From the NCBI GenBank assembly GCA_963082975.1, contig OY720346.1, positions 37,475,787-37,539,786 on the forward strand: a stretch of 64,000 nt of DNA, read 5' to 3'. The DNA comes from Labia minor. Lineage: Eukaryota > Arthropoda > Insecta > Dermaptera > Spongiphoridae. The notes beneath the pieces are model-generated. The model searched no databases. It saw only the letters and a list, made by a program, of their open reading frames with translations, and was not told the DNA's origin. Positions 5,088-13,524 of this stretch are shown piece after piece (position 1 is the stretch's first letter; every line of letters starts with the position of its first letter). The position numbers and the translations under genes are program-made.

Positions 5088-5502
5088 CTGGAGTTTCTCC
5101 ACTCGATTATCTCGCAAATTTGAATTGGATAAATTAACATATATTATATTTAAATTAAATTTAATGTGAAAAAACTATCAAAAATATATATCTTTATTTT
5201 GACAGTCAGTTTAGAGGAAAAAAAATGAAAACGTGGTTGGTAATGACTCTCCTCCGTATGATAAATTTCTAAAAAGTTGATAGAAAACTACGAATTTTGA
5301 ATATTGCTCCTGTACCAAATTTCATTATTCTAGCTCAAACCGTTTGTGCGTAATCTTGTTTATATACAAAAACACACATACACATACATTTTCCTCAACT
5401 TTAGTAAAAATGACTCAGGGACCTTCAAAACGTATAAAAACATCAAAATCTCGACATCGAAAATTTTCGTGATCGAAATACTATCTCTGACGAGATAGTA
5501 AA
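5088..5502 (-). mobile_element. Family B repeat (DINE/HINE-like)
   Basis: Lies in reverse: the stem-loop terminus (CTGGAGTTTCTCCACTC) is at 5088-5104 and the other end carries CGAGATAGT at 5491-5499. Near that end ACTATCTC-tgac-GAGATAGT forms a perfect 8-bp hairpin. Between them are the core phrase ACCAAATTTCATTATTC and the CACATACACATAC tract. It abuts a family-A copy without spacer. Confidence 0.7.
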
Positions 5503-6125
5503 TAAGTTGACCTGTGGCCATGTCCGAACCGACCGACGGTTTGAAATAAATTAATTTTCAGCTACAGAAACAATTTCAAATAATTTAAATGTTTCTATTA
5601 ATGTAATAAAAAACAGATATGGATATAACATTTTAATTTTATTTTATTTATAATATATATATGTAAGACCAGGTTGTGACGTCATGAATGGTTGGATGAC
5701 GACATATAATTTTAAATTGACAAAAAACTAATAAAGATGATTTTTCTCGAGGATAAAACCAATACAAAGTGCATGATTCGTGGTGATATGTAAAAAATCT
5801 CCTCATGCGAAATTTGGTGTGAAAATAACCCTTCCCTTCCTATCGTCGATCGCTAATACTACCACTTCCGGTTTTTGGATTTGCACCAAAAGTTGATCAA
5901 TTCATCCCACTGATGCATTAAGTAAATATACCAAATTTCATCAAAATCCGTTGAGCCGTTCAGGCTGTACACATCTATACGGACGGACAGACGGACGGAC
6001 AGACATCATGCTAAAAATACTTTTTTCTGTTAACAAAATGCATGATTCGTGGAGATATGTAAAAATCTCCACATGTGAAATTTGGTGTGAAAACAATACC
6101 TCCCTTACTATCGTCGGTCGGTAAA
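5503..6125 (-). mobile_element. Family A repeat (DINE/HINE-like), complete copy
   Basis: Subterminal inverted repeats are visible: ACCGACCGACG at 5528-5538 and its complement CGTCGGTCGGT at 6112-6122. Just outside the left one lies the terminal stem-loop region (GACCTGTGGCCATGTC, one mismatch in the stem). The interior has the ACTTCCGG core, ACCAAATTTCATCAAAATCC and a GGACGGACAGAC tract (about 5980-6003). This arrangement (subterminal inverted repeats, stem-loop outside the 3' one, short-repeat tract) is what is known for Drosophila DINE-1/INE-1 and other Helentron-associated repeats; assignment to that group is inference. No open frame of any size. Confidence 0.65.
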
Positions 6126-6296
6126 AATTAACATAATGAATAATTTTTGGGGGTTATTAATAACTGTCCTAATACTACCTATTATTATAAGACATATTTG
6201 AATTCTATTAAAGAGCACTCAAGTAATGATAGAATAGAAAAGAATTCAAATAAAAAATATTACTTAAAAAATAACGTAAACGACCTACGATTTGAT

Positions 6297-6455
6297 AAAA
6301 TAAGTTGACCTGTGGCCAGGTCCGAACCGACCGACGGTTTGAAATAAATTAATTTCCAGCTACAGAAACAATTTCAAATAATTTTAATATATCTATTAAT
6401 GTAATAAAAAACAGATATGGATAGAACATAAATATTTTTAATTTTATTTTATTTA
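6297..6455 (-). mobile_element. Family A repeat, left piece of the copy split by the PLE
   Basis: Carries the stem-loop GACCTG-tggc-CAGGTC (6307-6322) and the subterminal repeat ACCGACCGACG (6326-6336). It breaks off at TTTATTTTATTTA (6443-6455) and resumes with the same 13 bp at 12581. The rest of this copy is at 12581-13112. Confidence 0.8.
6443..6455. repeat. Left target-site duplication of the PLE (13 bp)
   Basis: TTTATTTTATTTA occurs here and at 12581-12593 and only once in the uninterrupted paralogue at about 14567-14580. The last two or three bases could equally belong to the element, so the true duplication is 10-13 bp. Confidence 0.75.
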
Positions 6456-7196
6456 ATTATTAAGAGAATTTTTATTAAAAGACCACATTATTTGTATAAA
6501 ATTATTTATTAAATTAAAATAATTGTACAACGTTTCAACTGCTTATTCTGCAGTCGTTTTCAAGTAACCGTACGCTTGCTCCGATTCAAGCGGACTGATG
6601 CATGTCGGGACACGTCACCTTTTATATAGGCAGTGATATTGGCGCCAATTTTTGGCTCCAATTTTTACCGCCAATTCTTAATCTCAACATGAAGTCAGCA
6701 GCAATTGTCAAAGCAAGCGTTTACAATCAAGAAGTATGATAGTGCATTATGTCTCTAAAATGAAGATACTAAATTATTTCCATAATCAAGATATATACAC
6801 AAATACACATTAGATTAATTATATTTAATTTAATTTGACAAATTTTACTCATCCAACACTATGTTCCACATCTTATTAAGTCTATATCCATCCTCTTTGT
6901 TAATATTATTGGGATGATTATCAATTTCTATAGATTCTTTTATTTTTCTTTTCCACCAATTATTTTCAATATGAAGTGTTTCTACATTATCTAAATTTAT
7001 TTTATGTCCTGTTGTTAAGGCATGTTCTGCAATTGCTGATTGATTTGGATGTTTCAATCTAATGGCTCTCTCATGTTCAGACAGTCTTGTAGAAATCTTT
7101 CTACTTGTTTCACCAATGTATACTTTTTTGCATTCACAAGTTACCTTATAAACTCCATTATTTTCGTTTTTAATTTTGTCTTTTATATTTGAGGTG
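6454..7196 (-). mobile_element. Inverted 3' fragment of the PLE
   Basis: Exact reverse complement, as far as read, of 9077-9819 (paired coordinates sum to 16273). It holds the C-terminal part of the GIY-YIG domain in reverse (visible as the 70-codon minus frame 6845-7057), the 3' UTR and the terminal block with its promoter. At 7196-7198 it switches to forward element sequence with a single extra G at 7197. Confidence 0.9.
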
Positions 7197-9428
7197 GTAT
7201 TAAGTTCTTTGAATTTCTTAAAAAGATGTCGTGATCAAGATATTATACCAAAAGGCTTTTATATTAACCGAGTTGTATACACAAAAAGAGCGACTAGCAT
7301 ATATAATAATGCTAGTTTGGCTCTGTTACGAGAACGCATCACAAATATCAGGCAAGTTTTATTTACATTAGACACTGATTTATTCAATATATATAATAAT
7401 CTAAAATCTGTTTTAACCCAGGAAGAAATTTCTTATTTGCAGCACGTATCCCAAACACACTTTAAATTTACACATAAAAAACAAACCGATATTCAAAAAT
7501 CAAAATTTGATAAACTTTCATTCAATAAGACTAAAACATCTATTCAGAATTTTGATAATAACAAATTAGTAGTCAATCTATCAAATAAAAGTCTTGACAA
7601 AAATACCATCTCAGTGTTAGCAAAAGGACCAAAGTTCTCCATAGCACCGAATAAAATTCCAAAAATTGAGATAGTTAGTTCAATTGAATCATCCTTATAT
7701 AACTTACCAAACAACATTGCAGAGGAAATTAGATTTGATACGATTAACATACTGAAAAATGCTAAACCACCCAAACCAAATTTGACCAAATCTGAGATGC
7801 GTGCTCTGAAGGAAATTAGAAACGATGACTCTCTAAAGATTATCCCTGCCGACAAAGGTAACGCCACTGTTGTAATGAATACAGCGGATTATAAACAAAA
7901 AATGGAAAATATTTTGAATTCTTCTACCTACGAAATACAGAAAAAAGATCCAACGGATAAATTCTGTAGAAAACTAAAATCAATAATAAAGAATCTACCT
8001 ATTGAGGAAAAAGATAAAGATAAATTAAAACCGAAAGATCCACAAATACCAAAAATATACGGTAATCCCAAAATCCATAAAACCAACAAATCTTTAAGAC
8101 CAATAGTTAGTCAAATCAATTCAGTGACTTACAACTCATCAAAATATCTAGCACATTTGTTAAAACCATTTACAGGTACTAATTTTTCATACGTTAAAAA
8201 TTCCACCCACTTAGTAGAAATGTTATCAAAAGTAGAAATTACAAAAAATGATATATTGGTGAGTCTGGATGTGGACTCCTTGTACACAAATGTTCCTATT
8301 GACGAGACCATTGAGATTATAAAATCAAACATTACCTTAGATAAAAATACTCTCGAATTAATAGAATTTTGCCAAAAATCTACATACTTTATTTATGATA
8401 AAAAGATTTATAAGCAAAAAGAAGGATGTGCTATGGGTAGTCCACTAAGCCCAGTATTCGCTAACATATTCATGGAAGAATTTGAATCAAAATTGGTCAA
8501 TAATGCAATAAAGAAACCAAAACTGTTTCTTAGATATGTGGATGATATTTTGATGATTTGGCCTCATGGTAAGGATTCTTTAGTTAAATTTGTAGAAGCA
8601 GCAAATAATTTACATAAAAATATAAAACTAAGCGTTGAATGGGAAATAAATGAAGAGTTACCGTTTCTTGATGTATTAATTAAAAAGAAACAGAATAGAT
8701 TAAGGTTTGATATTTTCAGGAAAACAACTCACACCAACAGATATATCCACGCAGATTCCCACCACCATCCATCACAAAAATATGGAGTGATAAAAACACT
8801 GCACAAAAGAGCCGAAGAGATATGCTCAAATGAAAACATTAAAAAAGAAAAACAACGATTGAAGGAAGCTTTCATAAACAATGGCTTCTCGGAATATGAA
8901 ATTAGGAAATTCAGTAAAACAAAAAAGACAGAAATCAAAAATGAAAATGAAAAACCAATATACAGATCACAAATAACATTACCTTATATAAAAGGAACAA
9001 CAGAAAAAATAGCGTCAAAATTGAGGAAACACAACATCAGAGTAACATATAAACCTCATAAACAAATGTCTTCTCTCACCTCAAATATAAAAGACAAAAT
9101 TAAAAACGAAAATAATGGAGTTTATAAGGTAACTTGTGAATGCAAAAAAGTATACATTGGTGAAACAAGTAGAAAGATTTCTACAAGACTGTCTGAACAT
9201 GAGAGAGCCATTAGATTGAAACATCCAAATCAATCAGCAATTGCAGAACATGCCTTAACAACAGGACATAAAATAAATTTAGATAATGTAGAAACACTTC
9301 ATATTGAAAATAATTGGTGGAAAAGAAAAATAAAAGAATCTATAGAAATTGATAATCATCCCAATAATATTAACAAAGAGGATGGATATAGACTTAATAA
9401 GATGTGGAACATAGTGTTGGATGAGTAA
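7176..9428 (+). CDS. PLE reverse transcriptase with GIY-YIG endonuclease, copy 1, N-terminally truncated
   Basis: A 750-codon open frame. Residues from about 10 onward equal the second copy from about residue 64, with one change (Asn for Lys in FYI-N/K-RVV). Reverse-transcriptase motifs: SLDVDSLYTNV with catalytic Asp, EGCAMGSPLSPVFANI, and YVDD at about 454-457. The C-terminus has the GIY-YIG nuclease (GVYK, YIGETS, TRLSEH). The first nine or so residues come from the antisense of the inverted arm: the ATG at 7176 lies before the junction and is in frame only by accident. The native N-terminus and promoter are lost here, because the arm just upstream points its promoter leftward, so expression of this copy is doubtful. 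Ends with the native TAA-type stop shared with copy 2. Confidence 0.85.
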   Translation: MSFIFEVVLSSLNFLKRCRDQDIIPKGFYINRVVYTKRATSIYNNASLALLRERITNIRQVLFTLDTDLFNIYNNLKSVLTQEEISYLQHVSQTHFKFTHKKQTDIQKSKFDKLSFNKTKTSIQNFDNNKLVVNLSNKSLDKNTISVLAKGPKFSIAPNKIPKIEIVSSIESSLYNLPNNIAEEIRFDTINILKNAKPPKPNLTKSEMRALKEIRNDDSLKIIPADKGNATVVMNTADYKQKMENILNSSTYEIQKKDPTDKFCRKLKSIIKNLPIEEKDKDKLKPKDPQIPKIYGNPKIHKTNKSLRPIVSQINSVTYNSSKYLAHLLKPFTGTNFSYVKNSTHLVEMLSKVEITKNDILVSLDVDSLYTNVPIDETIEIIKSNITLDKNTLELIEFCQKSTYFIYDKKIYKQKEGCAMGSPLSPVFANIFMEEFESKLVNNAIKKPKLFLRYVDDILMIWPHGKDSLVKFVEAANNLHKNIKLSVEWEINEELPFLDVLIKKKQNRLRFDIFRKTTHTNRYIHADSHHHPSQKYGVIKTLHKRAEEICSNENIKKEKQRLKEAFINNGFSEYEIRKFSKTKKTEIKNENEKPIYRSQITLPYIKGTTEKIASKLRKHNIRVTYKPHKQMSSLTSNIKDKIKNENNGVYKVTCECKKVYIGETSRKISTRLSEHERAIRLKHPNQSAIAEHALTTGHKINLDNVETLHIENNWWKRKIKESIEIDNHPNNINKEDGYRLNKMWNIVLDE

Positions 9429-9856
9429 AATTTGTCAAATTAAATTAAATATAATTAATCTAATGTGTATTTGTGTATATATCTTGATTATGGAAATAAT
9501 TTAGTATCTTCATTTTAGAGACATAATGCACTATCATACTTCTTGATTGTAAACGCTTGCTTTGACAATTGCTGCTGACTTCATGTTGAGATTAAGAATT
9601 GGCGGTAAAAATTGGAGCCAAAAATTGGCGCCAATATCACTGCCTATATAAAAGGTGACGTGTCCCGACATGCATCAGTCCGCTTGAATCGGAGCAAGCG
9701 TACGGTTACTTGAAAACGACTGCAGAATAAGCAGTTGAAACGTTGTACAATTATTTTAATTTAATAAATAATTTTATACAAATAATGTGGTCTTTTAATA
9801 AAAATTCTCTTAATAATTATCAAAATAACCACAAAAGCTTTAATAAATACATTTAT
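9429..9856 (+). repeat. PLE terminal block (pseudo-LTR), middle copy
   Basis: 3' untranslated sequence of copy 1 that also serves as 5' region of copy 2. It repeats at 12158-12585 and, inverted, at 6454-6844 (to the equivalent of 9819). It contains a TATA-type promoter (9645-9708), a hairpin CGCTTG-aatcggag-CAAGCG (about 9681-9700) and ACTGC-agaataa-GCAGT just before TTGAAACG, and the start codon of the copy-2 ORF. Confidence 0.85.
9645..9708 (+). promoter_or_regulatory. PLE core promoter: TATA box, initiator and DPE-like motif
   Basis: TATATAAAAGG at 9645-9655. TCAGTC at 9675-9680 matches the arthropod initiator TCAKTY with A+1 at 9677, so the TATA box starts at -32. GGTTA at 9704-9708 falls at +28 to +32 and fits the DPE consensus RGWYV. 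The predicted start leaves a leader of 66 nt before the ATG at 9743. Duplicate promoters lie at 12374-12437 (forward) and 6565-6628 (reverse). Confidence 0.7.
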
Positions 9857-12157
9857 GAGAAATATAACCTAAAAATTCAAAAGCAGGTAAGGAGTTATGA
9901 TGGATTAATTGTTAAAAAAGCAAAATTATTAAGTTCTTTGAATTTCTTAAAAAGATGTCGTGATCAAGATATTATACCAAAAGGCTTTTATATTAAGCGA
10001 GTTGTATACACAAAAAGAGCGACTAGCATATATAATAATGCTAGTTTGGCTCTGTTACGAGAACGCATCACAAATATCAGGCAAGTTTTATTTACATTAG
10101 ACACTGATTTATTCAATATATATAATAATCTAAAATCTGTTTTAACCCAGGAAGAAATTTCTTATTTGCAGCACGTATCCCAAACACACTTTAAATTTAC
10201 ACATAAAAAACAAACCGATATTCAAAAATCAAAATTTGATAAACTTTCATTCAATAAGACTAAAACATCTATTCAGAATTTTGATAATAACAAATTAGTA
10301 GTCAATCTATCAAATAAAAGTCTTGACAAAAATACCATCTCAGTGTTAGCAAAAGGACCAAAGTTCTCCATAGCACCGAATAAAATTCCAAAAATTGAGA
10401 TAGTTAGTTCAATTGAATCATCCTTATATAACTTACCAAACAACATTGCAGAGGAAATTAGATTTGATACGATTAACATACTGAAAAATGCTAAACCACC
10501 CAAACCAAATTTGACCAAATCTGAGATGCGTGCTCTGAAGGAAATTAGAAACGATGACTCTCTAAAGATTATCCCTGCCGACAAAGGTAACGCCACTGTT
10601 GTAATGAATACAGCGGATTATAAACAAAAAATGGAAAATATTTTGAATTCTTCTACCTACGAAATACAGAAAAAAGATCCAACGGATAAATTCTGTAGAA
10701 AACTAAAATCAATAATAAAGAATCTACCTATTGAGGAAAAAGATAAAGATAAATTAAAACCGAAAGATCCACAAATACCAAAAATATACGGTAATCCCAA
10801 AATCCATAAAACCAACAAATCTTTAAGACCAATAGTTAGTCAAATCAATTCAGTGACTTACAACTCATCAAAATATCTAGCACATTTGTTAAAACCATTT
10901 ACAGGTACTAATTTTTCATACGTTAAAAATTCCACCCACTTAGTAGAAATGTTATCAAAAGTAGAAATTACAAAAAATGATATATTGGTGAGTCTGGATG
11001 TGGACTCCTTGTACACAAATGTTCCTATTGACGAGACCATTGAGATTATAAAATCAAACATTACCTTAGATAAAAATACTCTCGAATTAATAGAATTTTG
11101 CCAAAAATCTACATACTTTATTTATGATAAAAAGATTTATAAGCAAAAAGAAGGATGTGCTATGGGTAGTCCACTAAGCCCAGTATTCGCTAACATATTC
11201 ATGGAAGAATTTGAATCAAAATTGGTCAATAATGCAATAAAGAAACCAAAACTGTTTCTTAGATATGTGGATGATATTTTGATGATTTGGCCTCATGGTA
11301 AGGATTCTTTAGTTAAATTTGTAGAAGCAGCAAATAATTTACATAAAAATATAAAACTAAGCGTTGAATGGGAAATAAATGAAGAGTTACCGTTTCTTGA
11401 TGTATTAATTAAAAAGAAACAGAATAGATTAAGGTTTGATATTTTCAGGAAAACAACTCACACCAACAGATATATCCACGCAGATTCCCACCACCATCCA
11501 TCACAAAAATATGGAGTGATAAAAACACTGCACAAAAGAGCCGAAGAGATATGCTCAAATGAAAACATTAAAAAAGAAAAACAACGATTGAAGGAAGCTT
11601 TCATAAACAATGGCTTCTCGGAATATGAAATTAGGAAATTCAGTAAAACAAAAAAGACAGAAATCAAAAATGAAAATGAAAAACCAATATACAGATCACA
11701 AATAACATTACCTTATATAAAAGGAACAACAGAAAAAATAGCGTCAAAATTGAGGAAACACAACATCAGAGTAACATATAAACCTCATAAACAAATGTCT
11801 TCTCTCACCTCAAATATAAAAGACAAAATTAAAAACGAAAATAATGGAGTTTATAAGGTAACTTGTGAATGCAAAAAAGTATACATTGGTGAAACAAGTA
11901 GAAAGATTTCTACAAGACTGTCTGAACATGAGAGAGCCATTAGATTGAAACATCCAAATCAATCAGCAATTGCAGAACATGCCTTAACAACAGGACATAA
12001 AATAAATTTAGATAATGTAGAAACACTTCATATTGAAAATAATTGGTGGAAAAGAAAAATAAAAGAATCTATAGAAATTGATAATCATCCCAATAATATT
12101 AACAAAGAGGATGGATATAGACTTAATAAGATGTGGAACATAGTGTTGGATGAGTAA
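9743..12157 (+). CDS. PLE reverse transcriptase with GIY-YIG endonuclease, complete copy
   Basis: An 804-residue protein expected to nick target DNA and reverse-transcribe the element RNA in the nucleus. The first 38 or so residues are encoded within the terminal block and are rich in Asn, Tyr and Phe. Next comes a basic N-terminal region, then reverse-transcriptase motifs: IPADKGNATVVM, a PKIYGNPKIHK and SLRPIVS region, catalytic Asp at about 419 in SLDVDSLYTNV, MGSPLSPVFANIFMEEFE, and YVDD at 508-511 with both Asp present. A thumb/linker region follows. The C-terminal GIY-YIG endonuclease has GVY at 702-704, YIG at 714-716, then R and H in TRLSEH and a Glu in the KIKES stretch. Two Cys (VTCEC) lie between GIY and YIG and two His follow (AEHALTTGH), the CCHH arrangement known for Penelope-type GIY-YIG domains. 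No frameshift or stop, and all catalytic residues recognised are present. The start at 9743 is the first ATG after the predicted initiator; a second in-frame ATG is at residue 15. Confidence 0.93.
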   Translation: MYNYFNLINNFIQIMWSFNKNSLNNYQNNHKSFNKYIYEKYNLKIQKQVRSYDGLIVKKAKLLSSLNFLKRCRDQDIIPKGFYIKRVVYTKRATSIYNNASLALLRERITNIRQVLFTLDTDLFNIYNNLKSVLTQEEISYLQHVSQTHFKFTHKKQTDIQKSKFDKLSFNKTKTSIQNFDNNKLVVNLSNKSLDKNTISVLAKGPKFSIAPNKIPKIEIVSSIESSLYNLPNNIAEEIRFDTINILKNAKPPKPNLTKSEMRALKEIRNDDSLKIIPADKGNATVVMNTADYKQKMENILNSSTYEIQKKDPTDKFCRKLKSIIKNLPIEEKDKDKLKPKDPQIPKIYGNPKIHKTNKSLRPIVSQINSVTYNSSKYLAHLLKPFTGTNFSYVKNSTHLVEMLSKVEITKNDILVSLDVDSLYTNVPIDETIEIIKSNITLDKNTLELIEFCQKSTYFIYDKKIYKQKEGCAMGSPLSPVFANIFMEEFESKLVNNAIKKPKLFLRYVDDILMIWPHGKDSLVKFVEAANNLHKNIKLSVEWEINEELPFLDVLIKKKQNRLRFDIFRKTTHTNRYIHADSHHHPSQKYGVIKTLHKRAEEICSNENIKKEKQRLKEAFINNGFSEYEIRKFSKTKKTEIKNENEKPIYRSQITLPYIKGTTEKIASKLRKHNIRVTYKPHKQMSSLTSNIKDKIKNENNGVYKVTCECKKVYIGETSRKISTRLSEHERAIRLKHPNQSAIAEHALTTGHKINLDNVETLHIENNWWKRKIKESIEIDNHPNNINKEDGYRLNKMWNIVLDE

Positions 12158-12580
12158 AATTTGTCAAATTAAATTAAATATAATTAATCTAATGTGTATT
12201 TGTGTATATATCTTGATTATGGAAATAATTTAGTATCTTCATTTTAGAGACATAATGCACTATCATACTTCTTGATTGTAAACGCTTGCTTTGACAATTG
12301 CTGCTGACTTCATGTTGAGATTAAGAATTGGCGGTAAAAATTGGAGCCAAAAATTGGCGCCAATATCACTGCCTATATAAAAGGTGACGTGTCCCGACAT
12401 GCATCAGTCCGCTTGAATCGGAGCAAGCGTACGGTTACTTGAAAACGACTGCAGAATAAGCAGTTGAAACGTTGTACAATTATTTTAATTTAATAAATAA
12501 TTTTATACAAATAATGTGGTCTTTTAATAAAAATTCTCTTAATAATTATCAAAATAACCACAAAAGCTTTAATAAATACA
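12158..12580 (+). repeat. PLE terminal block (pseudo-LTR), right copy
   Basis: Repeats 9429-9851 with no difference noticed. It carries a full TATA/initiator promoter (TATA 12374-12384, initiator 12404-12409) that points into the flanking repeat. Ends at the right target duplication. Confidence 0.85.
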
Positions 12581-12593
12581 TTTATTTTATTTA
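12581..12593. repeat. Right target-site duplication of the PLE (13 bp)
   Basis: TTTATTTTATTTA, identical to 6443-6455. From here the interrupted family-A repeat continues with TAATATATAGCTGAAG as in the intact copy at 14441-15058. Confidence 0.75.
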
Positions 12594-13112
12594 TAATATA
12601 TAGCTGAAGTAGCCGGCGTTGCCGGCGTTATCTGAGGCTGTGACGTCATGAAGGGCTGGGCGGTGGGTGGTATAATTTTAAATTAAGAAAAACATAATGA
12701 AGATGATTTTTCCCGAGGATAAAACCAATACATTCGTGGTGATATGTAAAAAAATCTCCTTATGTGAAATTTGGTGCGAAAATAACCCTTCCCTTCTTAT
12801 CGTCGATCGCTAATACTACCACTTCCGGTTTCCGGATTTGCACCAAAAGTTGATCAATTCATCCCACTGATGCATTAAGTAAATATACCAAATTTCATCA
12901 AAATCCGTTAAGCCGTTCAGGCTGTACACATCTATACGGACGGACAGACGGACAGACGGACGGACAGACGGACAGACGGACGGACAGACATCATGCTAAA
13001 AATACTTTTTTCTGTTAAGAAAATGCATGATTCGTGGAGATATGTAAAAATCTCCACATGTGAAATTTGGTGTGAAAACAATACCTCCCTTACTATCGTC
13101 GGTCGGTAAAAA
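12581..13112 (-). mobile_element. Family A repeat, right piece of the copy split by the PLE
   Basis: Continues the copy begun at 6297. It has the ACTTCCGG core, the ACCAAATTTCATC phrase, an expanded GGAC/AGAC tract (about 12937-12988) and the subterminal repeat CGTCGGTCGGT at 13097-13107. A minus-strand frame (12932-13261) reading through the tract is simple-sequence translation, not a gene. Confidence 0.8.
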
Positions 13113-13390
13113 AGCTTATCATAAGTTATTAACAAAAAATGTATAAATAAAAAACTAAAAATAAATTTAAAAAAAAACACCCAGTCTTTACGATTAATAT
13201 CAAAATTATCCTTATTTCCTATCTTTTTTTTAATATTTATAAATAAAATAAAATATTTCATAAAAATCTATAAATTTCATAAAAATAATATTAATTGATT
13301 AAAGATATACCTGTATATCATCCTACTCATAAAAATAAAAGTAAATAAAAACAAATAAATAAATAAAAAAAAATTAAAATATCAAACATT

Positions 13391-13524
13391 AAAATTTAAC
13401 TGTTATCATGAAATACATTAGTATTATCTTTTTTATTAAAATTAATATATTAAATTTAAAATTTAACTGTTATCATGAAATACATTAGTATTATCTTTTT
13501 TATTAAAATTAATATATTAAATTT
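13391..13524. repeat. Tandem duplication, two 67-bp units
   Basis: AAAATTTAACTGTTATCATG begins at 13391 and again at 13458, and the whole 67-bp unit repeats with no difference noticed. Recent local duplication of AT-rich spacer. Confidence 0.85.

Follow-up and report, generated by a model that had tools for sequence, protein, structure and literature searches.

A 64,000-bp stretch of the Labia minor genome (GCA_963082975.1, contig OY720346.1, positions 37,475,787 to 37,539,786 of the forward strand; below, the window) contains an insertion of a Penelope-like element (PLE) whose two outer ends are of different kinds. They correspond to two neighbouring start sites of reverse transcription, a short (S) and a long (L) one, and the same pairing of one S end with one L end was found in nearly all two-armed insertions of the family that were not chosen by end type. 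We consider it probable that both strands of a staggered cut serve as primers for reverse transcription, either on one RNA or on sister RNAs from one locus, and that each start site is used once. The movement of Penelope-like elements is still poorly known, and the main interest of this insertion lies in what its many fresh relatives reveal of PLE integration, not in the element itself.

The insertion consists of an inverted arm and two forward copies, and it conforms to the pairing. Positions in the element are given in unit coordinates, where unit position 1 is window 9857 and the unit length is 2729 bp. The array, with its target site duplication (TSD) and pseudo-long terminal repeat (pLTR), is arranged as follows:

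6443..6455, no strand: left TSD, TTTATTTTATTTA, overlapping the element by 2 bp
6454..7196, minus strand: inverted arm covering unit 2692 down to 1950, with the S start site as its outer end
7198..9856, plus strand: copy 1, 5'-truncated, unit 71-2729, with an open frame fragment to 9428
9857..12585, plus strand: copy 2, a complete 2729-bp unit; its outer end is the L start site
12402..12548, plus strand: second pLTR, unit 2546-2692
12549..12585, plus strand: tail between the S and L start sites, present at the L outer end and absent from the other outer end
12581..12593, no strand: right TSD, TTTATTTTATTTA, overlapping the element by 5 bp

An earlier note on the window, made from its letters alone, had described forward copies with a period of 2729 bp, a 743-bp inverted arm and two long frames differing at one residue, and realignment reproduced all of this to the base. 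Aligned base by base, 7198-9856 and 9927-12585 differ at one of 2659 bases (7268 C / 9997 G), which alters a single residue (FYINRV / FYIKRV), and all 743 bases of the inverted arm are complementary both to 9077-9819 and to 11806-12548. A one-base filler (7197) lies between the inverted arm and copy 1. Tandem units, pLTRs, 5' truncation and an inverted partial copy are all present, as expected of the partial tandem and inverted arrays that the note had attributed to PLEs. An origin of the tandem in misassembly is unlikely, since there is a one-base difference between its units and other places in the genome have the same period.

The family is young and abundant. In the searched assembly (604 Mb, 71 contigs), the 28-bp sequence before the tail has 1655 matches with at most one mismatch, the 37-bp sequence spanning the tail has 952 and the 24-bp tail sequence 1449, with 0 matches to the reversed-pattern control in each case. 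A 601-bp internal query found at least 41 places, all 100% identical after rounding (40 of 257 candidates were scored). Complete open reading frames (ORFs) are intact in 24 of 25 cases from the window and 20 fetched loci, so that fixed stops in all copies, which the note had named as a possible counter-finding, are not what the genome contains. The script counted 23 of 25, and L028 proved intact once read from its own ATG; the sole failure, L015, carries a single additional stop. Both this locus and L016 were counted; the two (C34, about 9.4 kb apart) carry one PLE insertion twice, with the same TSD and arms and with the in-frame stop in one copy but not the other, apparently as a result of a later duplication of host DNA.

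When the loci were mapped onto the unit, the 3' ends of two-armed insertions were found to face outward. In 69 S+L insertions, 62 S ends lie at unit 2685-2698 (mode 2692) and all L ends at unit 2719-2750 (mode 2722); the S class was set wide (unit 2655-2712). The two sites are about 35 nt apart, S being about 35 nt and L about 65-72 nt or more into the ORF. Among the resolved two-armed insertions that were not chosen by end type (n = 45), 44 are S+L, one is S/S and none is L/L (P = 1.31e-12 if ends are independent and equally likely). The count was 43 of 44 (P = 2.56e-12) before C1:39165 was resolved. A second retroelement, bearing an integrase core (Pfam rve, 1.4e-11 in L129), interrupts this insertion (G000:C1:39156412-39169300; L127, L129, L060, L061), which is still S+L, its left end (L127) being S at 2692 and its right end (L061) L at 2722, with 15 shared target bases. 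Of the 64 insertions with a TSD of at least 9, 30 have S as their left end and 34 have L there.

The insertion table comprises 108 rows in four groups by manner of choice. G1 (20 rows) includes the window, the places found by internal sequence and C1:17737; 18 are S+L (L016 duplicating L015), L019 is one-armed and L023 runs into N. For G2, 25 head-to-head clusters were picked by eye from 100 listed places of the 1655 matches, and all were fetched, whole or by their ends; with C1:17737 counted in G1, the 24 left comprise 23 S+L and one S/S insertion (L036). G3 consists of 19 single matches to the 28-bp end sequence, four of them two-armed and all S+L (two with displaced S ends, 2662 and 2677), the remaining 15, L127 among them, being one-armed or running off the locus. 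The 45 rows of G4 were chosen wholly or partly for the tail, and many come from a subfamily about 5% diverged; this choice under-represents S/S, yet could reveal L/L. It yielded 26 S+L insertions, no L/L and 16 that are one-armed or without full resolution, and L093 was set apart by the script, with its long end (unit 45) beyond the set limit. Eight rows of G4 (L116-L123) are also matches to the 28-bp end sequence; the script scored none of them S+L, and L122 has, by eye, a very short S arm.

The end types bear directly on self-priming, in which the inverted arm results from the copying of a cDNA or antisense strand folded back on itself. An arm copied in this way should share the outer end of the other, whereas S and L are found together in 44 of 45 insertions; moreover, in 12 of the 21 insertions with a longer arm above 300 bp (ends copied by hand) the two inner junctions are separated by more than 200 nt in unit coordinates, as in the window (1950 and 71). 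A few junctions are symmetric (L029, 2616/2616; L045, 1930/1930) and the arms are nearly identical, as snap-back would give, and PMC3846280 argues for self-priming from palindromes in Adineta vaga. The end types lead us to reject snap-back as the general origin of the arms, and as an explanation of the family it is quite improbable.

The likeness of the arms was compared for overlaps of at least 500 bases, segments with alignment gaps being dropped. Arms of the same insertion show 2 differences in 19,484 aligned bases from 13 insertions (0.10/kb), while re-paired arms show 1.65/kb (20,000 permutations, P = 0.00005), an about 16-fold difference. In L009, excluded on account of a gap, 2609 aligned columns contain 3 gapped ones and no mismatch. 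If all 32 insertions are taken, short arms too, within-insertion differences total 11 against about 45 from between-insertion means, and in 7 of the 32 both arms carry a base absent from every other sampled insertion, the window being one of them (unit 2525 A). As far as sequence can tell, this shows that both arms derive from one source locus, and they may derive from one RNA molecule. Two target-primed events on independent RNA molecules, with the start chosen at random, would be consistent with the absence of a strand difference between start sites in vitro (PMC11167929) and with the use of each site alone in one-armed insertions. However, such events predict S+L in at most half of the insertions and arms as unlike as random copies, and we regard them as highly improbable.

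The 13-bp target duplication reported in the earlier note is confirmed (6443-6455 = 12581-12593); in 3000 random draws of site pairs in the window, those less than 100 bp apart being skipped, none shared 13 bp. The target occurs once in a paralogous site nearby:

5494..6136, plus strand: uninterrupted paralogue of the joined flanks, i.e., an empty site, 84% identity over 707 columns

The insertion interrupts one unit of a tandem host repeat of about 800 bp (window 5494-6136, 12671-13112), and the neighbouring unit is this empty site. A perfect 67-bp tandem duplication is also located at 13389-13522. Across the family, true ends share at least 11 bp in 63 of 69 insertions, compared with 3 of 409 mispaired ends. 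The mode of TSD length is 12, chance extension included, like that of a simulated 12-bp stagger, and the targets are AT-rich. Recombination after insertion, or misassembly, could be suspected as the source of the inverted arm and tandem in a dense family with palindromes that are hard to assemble, the more so as L013 and L023 run into N; yet TSDs bound the whole array, the empty-site paralogue shows the window target and the ends are confined to two sites, which makes this explanation barely credible. Ends at which the TSD does not overlap the element number 5 of 64 for S and 7 of 64 for L, as compared with about four in ten in simulated insertions, which had no sequence preference of the cut built in; the commonest overlap is 2 bases at both kinds of end. 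Since the overlap exceeds that in the simulation, short matches between target and template seem to be usual in this family, unlike the in vitro description.

At most inner junctions the arms overlap slightly or are separated by a small filler, some fillers being longer, as in end joining. Their positions can be compared with the presumptive promoter of the element:

9645..9679, plus strand: TATATAA (9645) and initiator-like TCAGT (9675), unit 2518 and 2548
9673..9819, plus strand: pLTR upstream of the complete ORF, unit 2546-2692

Transcription probably starts at about 9677, since these two motifs are followed by an accumulation of inner ends (21 of 177 segment ends at unit 2546-2557). L040 (C1:27233750-27234700) is a composite of several short pieces that stop at unit 2546 and have similar spacers, which looks like the result of template jumps at the RNA 5' end. 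Other clusters of inner ends exist, notably at unit 2616-2625. Inner ends near unit 2610-2625 (window 12466-12481) lie beside GAAACGTTGTAC, a stretch which we take to resemble the 3' half of a hammerhead; 5' ends made by such a ribozyme are possible for the 2616-2625 cluster, but the region is palindromic and its 5' half looks degenerate and is not intact.

The following course of integration would account for these observations. The enzyme would cut AT-rich DNA with a stagger of about 12 bp, and each cut strand would prime reverse transcription on element RNA, of the same sense in both cases, from S on one strand and from L, sometimes further, on the other. The use of each start once would be simplest if two enzyme molecules, as a protein dimer, shared one RNA, or if the first start left only the other free. 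The template would be a read-through transcript of a tandem array, so a long cDNA can hold more than one unit. On meeting, the two cDNAs would be joined head to head; the product would have its 3' ends facing outward, an inverted arm that can be of any length, and a TSD. Two-strand target priming with one start each thus leads one to expect outward 3' ends, S+L pairing, a TSD around the whole array, identical arms and arbitrary inner junctions. If the start is made at the first pLTR of such an RNA, arms of about 150-180 nt result, which would explain the many small palindromes on C1; the family's palindromes of about 300 bp would be explained as solo pLTR insertions. The window array should be able to make protein, but full-length templates may come mainly from longer arrays. 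One of these (G000:C70:40633-49420) has at least 4 head-to-tail units at exactly 2729 bp, as judged from 3.6-kb pieces (L003-L006), and is a possible source array.

Several points weigh against priming by both strands on one RNA. Seven of the 69 S ends are outside the cluster (2659, 2662, 2677, 2680, 2699, 2701, 2702), and matches in the flanks or small deletions account for some of these. L036 (C1:43859450-43860050) is a clear S/S insertion whose ends share 16 bp of target sequence, so that the exception is a clean one. L111 and L121, both of G4, each have one end well within the unit (2644 and 2318), apparently through damage. One-armed insertions with a TSD occur; the second priming is therefore not obligatory and can fail. 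Among the fetched single matches to the 28-bp sequence with a TSD of at least 9, seven are S (L069, L070, L075, L078, L080, L081, L126) and three are L (L117, L118, L119). The identity of the arms indicates one locus rather than one molecule, and later gene conversion between arms could also produce it. Were one enzyme to trail the other along a single RNA, an L arm should be no longer than its S arm; L arms are nevertheless often the longer, the window being an example (L arm 5388, S arm 743). All counts come from a single genome.

The lengths of the arms are easier to explain if two enzymes each brought their own RNA from one source locus and an asymmetric complex fixed S and L, and such a complex accounts equally well for the end pairing and the arm identity. 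It requires, however, a built-in asymmetry between two like complexes, and it makes no prediction about inner ends, which show a suggestive excess of near-equal pairs. Of the 21 pairs, 9 are at most 200 nt apart modulo the unit, 3.1 being expected (P = 0.0007), at a threshold that, as a further point against the shared RNA, was chosen after looking (P is 0.09, 0.13 and 0.005 at 50, 100 and 160 nt). Two of the nine, L021 and L026, differ by about one extra unit, which is what a multi-unit RNA entered at different pLTRs would give. We consider separate RNAs in an asymmetric complex unlikely.

The element itself looks like a canonical PLE, ordinary and young. Its remaining features are as follows:

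9785..12157, plus strand: complete 790-aa ORF, RVT_1 5.4e-17, with a C-terminal GVY...YIG region; its ATG is in copy 1
12515..12562, plus strand: predicted hairpin TGTGGT...ACCACA spanning the S site, the same in copy 1 at 9786-9833

The complete gene exists only across the tandem junction, because its ATG (9785) sits in the tail of the upstream copy; the frame at 7152-9428 opens by chance within the inverted arm. The single ORF encodes a reverse transcriptase domain (RVT_1, E 5.4e-17) with YVDD seen by eye, while telomerase reverse transcriptase (TERT) chains match it weakly (E 0.12-0.14) and rank below group II intron-like and retron-type reverse transcriptases. The GVY...YIG motif at the C-terminus was also read by eye. 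The top matches of this region, statistically insignificant, are UvrC (NCBIfam, E 0.022) and Endonuclease II (PDB 2wsh, E 0.65), followed in the PDB search by WbgU at 1.1. UvrC and Endonuclease II are GIY-YIG nucleases. The Pfam output for the ORF contains no GIY-YIG model, and the AF2 model of the C-terminal 118 aa (pLDDT 34) is unusable. No Rfam hammerhead match was found in the element, although minimal PLE variants could escape the models, and a search of the phage collection gave no match. The folding z-score of the hairpin is -2.2 for a 71-nt piece, +0.3 for 132 nt and -0.2 for 91 nt. A minus-strand match to Rfam mir-558 (E 0.0042; 23.6 bits, the gathering score being 90) was rejected as a family assignment and is read only as a sign of the hairpin. 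The Penelope-like identity proposed in the earlier note is borne out by the RVT_1 ORF, tandem units with pLTRs, inverted partial copies, a tail of 30-40 bp and a short AT-rich TSD, and the youth it ascribed to the insertion by the near identity of the copies in an abundant, young family. Its suggestion that the second copy may still be active is plausible from sequence features, since the ORF is intact and a complete pLTR with TATA and initiator-like motifs lies upstream; the element may be active at present and is possibly still mobile.

We give about even chances to the broader proposition that Penelope-like elements integrate by a coupled two-strand reaction, with one RNA and two adjacent starts, one per target strand, and with head-to-head joining of the two cDNAs. 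If this is true, a single mechanism has left both the "optional tail" and the "inverted pLTR", and the two become readable as products of a single reaction. The pairing of ends connects results obtained in vitro with real insertions, and any genome that has a young family lends itself to such a count.

In twin-primed LINE-1 insertions, two primings at one target give an inverted 5' part, and the second priming takes place at an internal RNA position. Unlike these, both arms in Labia minor end in the same start region. In the available part of its description (PMC3846280), the Adineta vaga Penelope is similar in having direct and inverted pLTRs, head-to-head arms, partial tandems, TSDs of 8-10 bp and a 31-bp tail that is optional at one inverted pLTR. 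It differs in that few copies are described and their arms are ascribed to self-priming, whereas the dozens of young insertions in Labia minor speak against self-priming as the main route. Inverted pLTRs with short 3' extensions are mentioned in the accessible text of PMC8969392, and what is available of PMC12910113 and PMC7761336 has no bearing on the pairing; a rule of one S and one L end was not found stated in the accessible portions of the open-access literature, and its priority is uncertain.

The Poseidon/Penelope element of Anolis carolinensis (PAc, PMC11167929) likewise forms tandem units with pLTRs, and its cuts are AT-rich. In vitro, its enzyme cuts and extends both strands, and reverse transcription begins at two adjacent internal start sites near the start of the ORF, the tail being the stretch between them; the S and L ends in Labia minor correspond to these in kind. 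The commonest PAc start is at 111-118, while the Labia minor starts lie some 35 and 65-72 nt into the predicted ORF. According to the same paper, the PAc start is not homologous to the cut DNA; in Labia minor, short target-template overlaps are commoner than simulated. The evidence in Labia minor comes from genomic insertions and not from in vitro reactions, and, unlike in PAc, these insertions carry one start of each kind.

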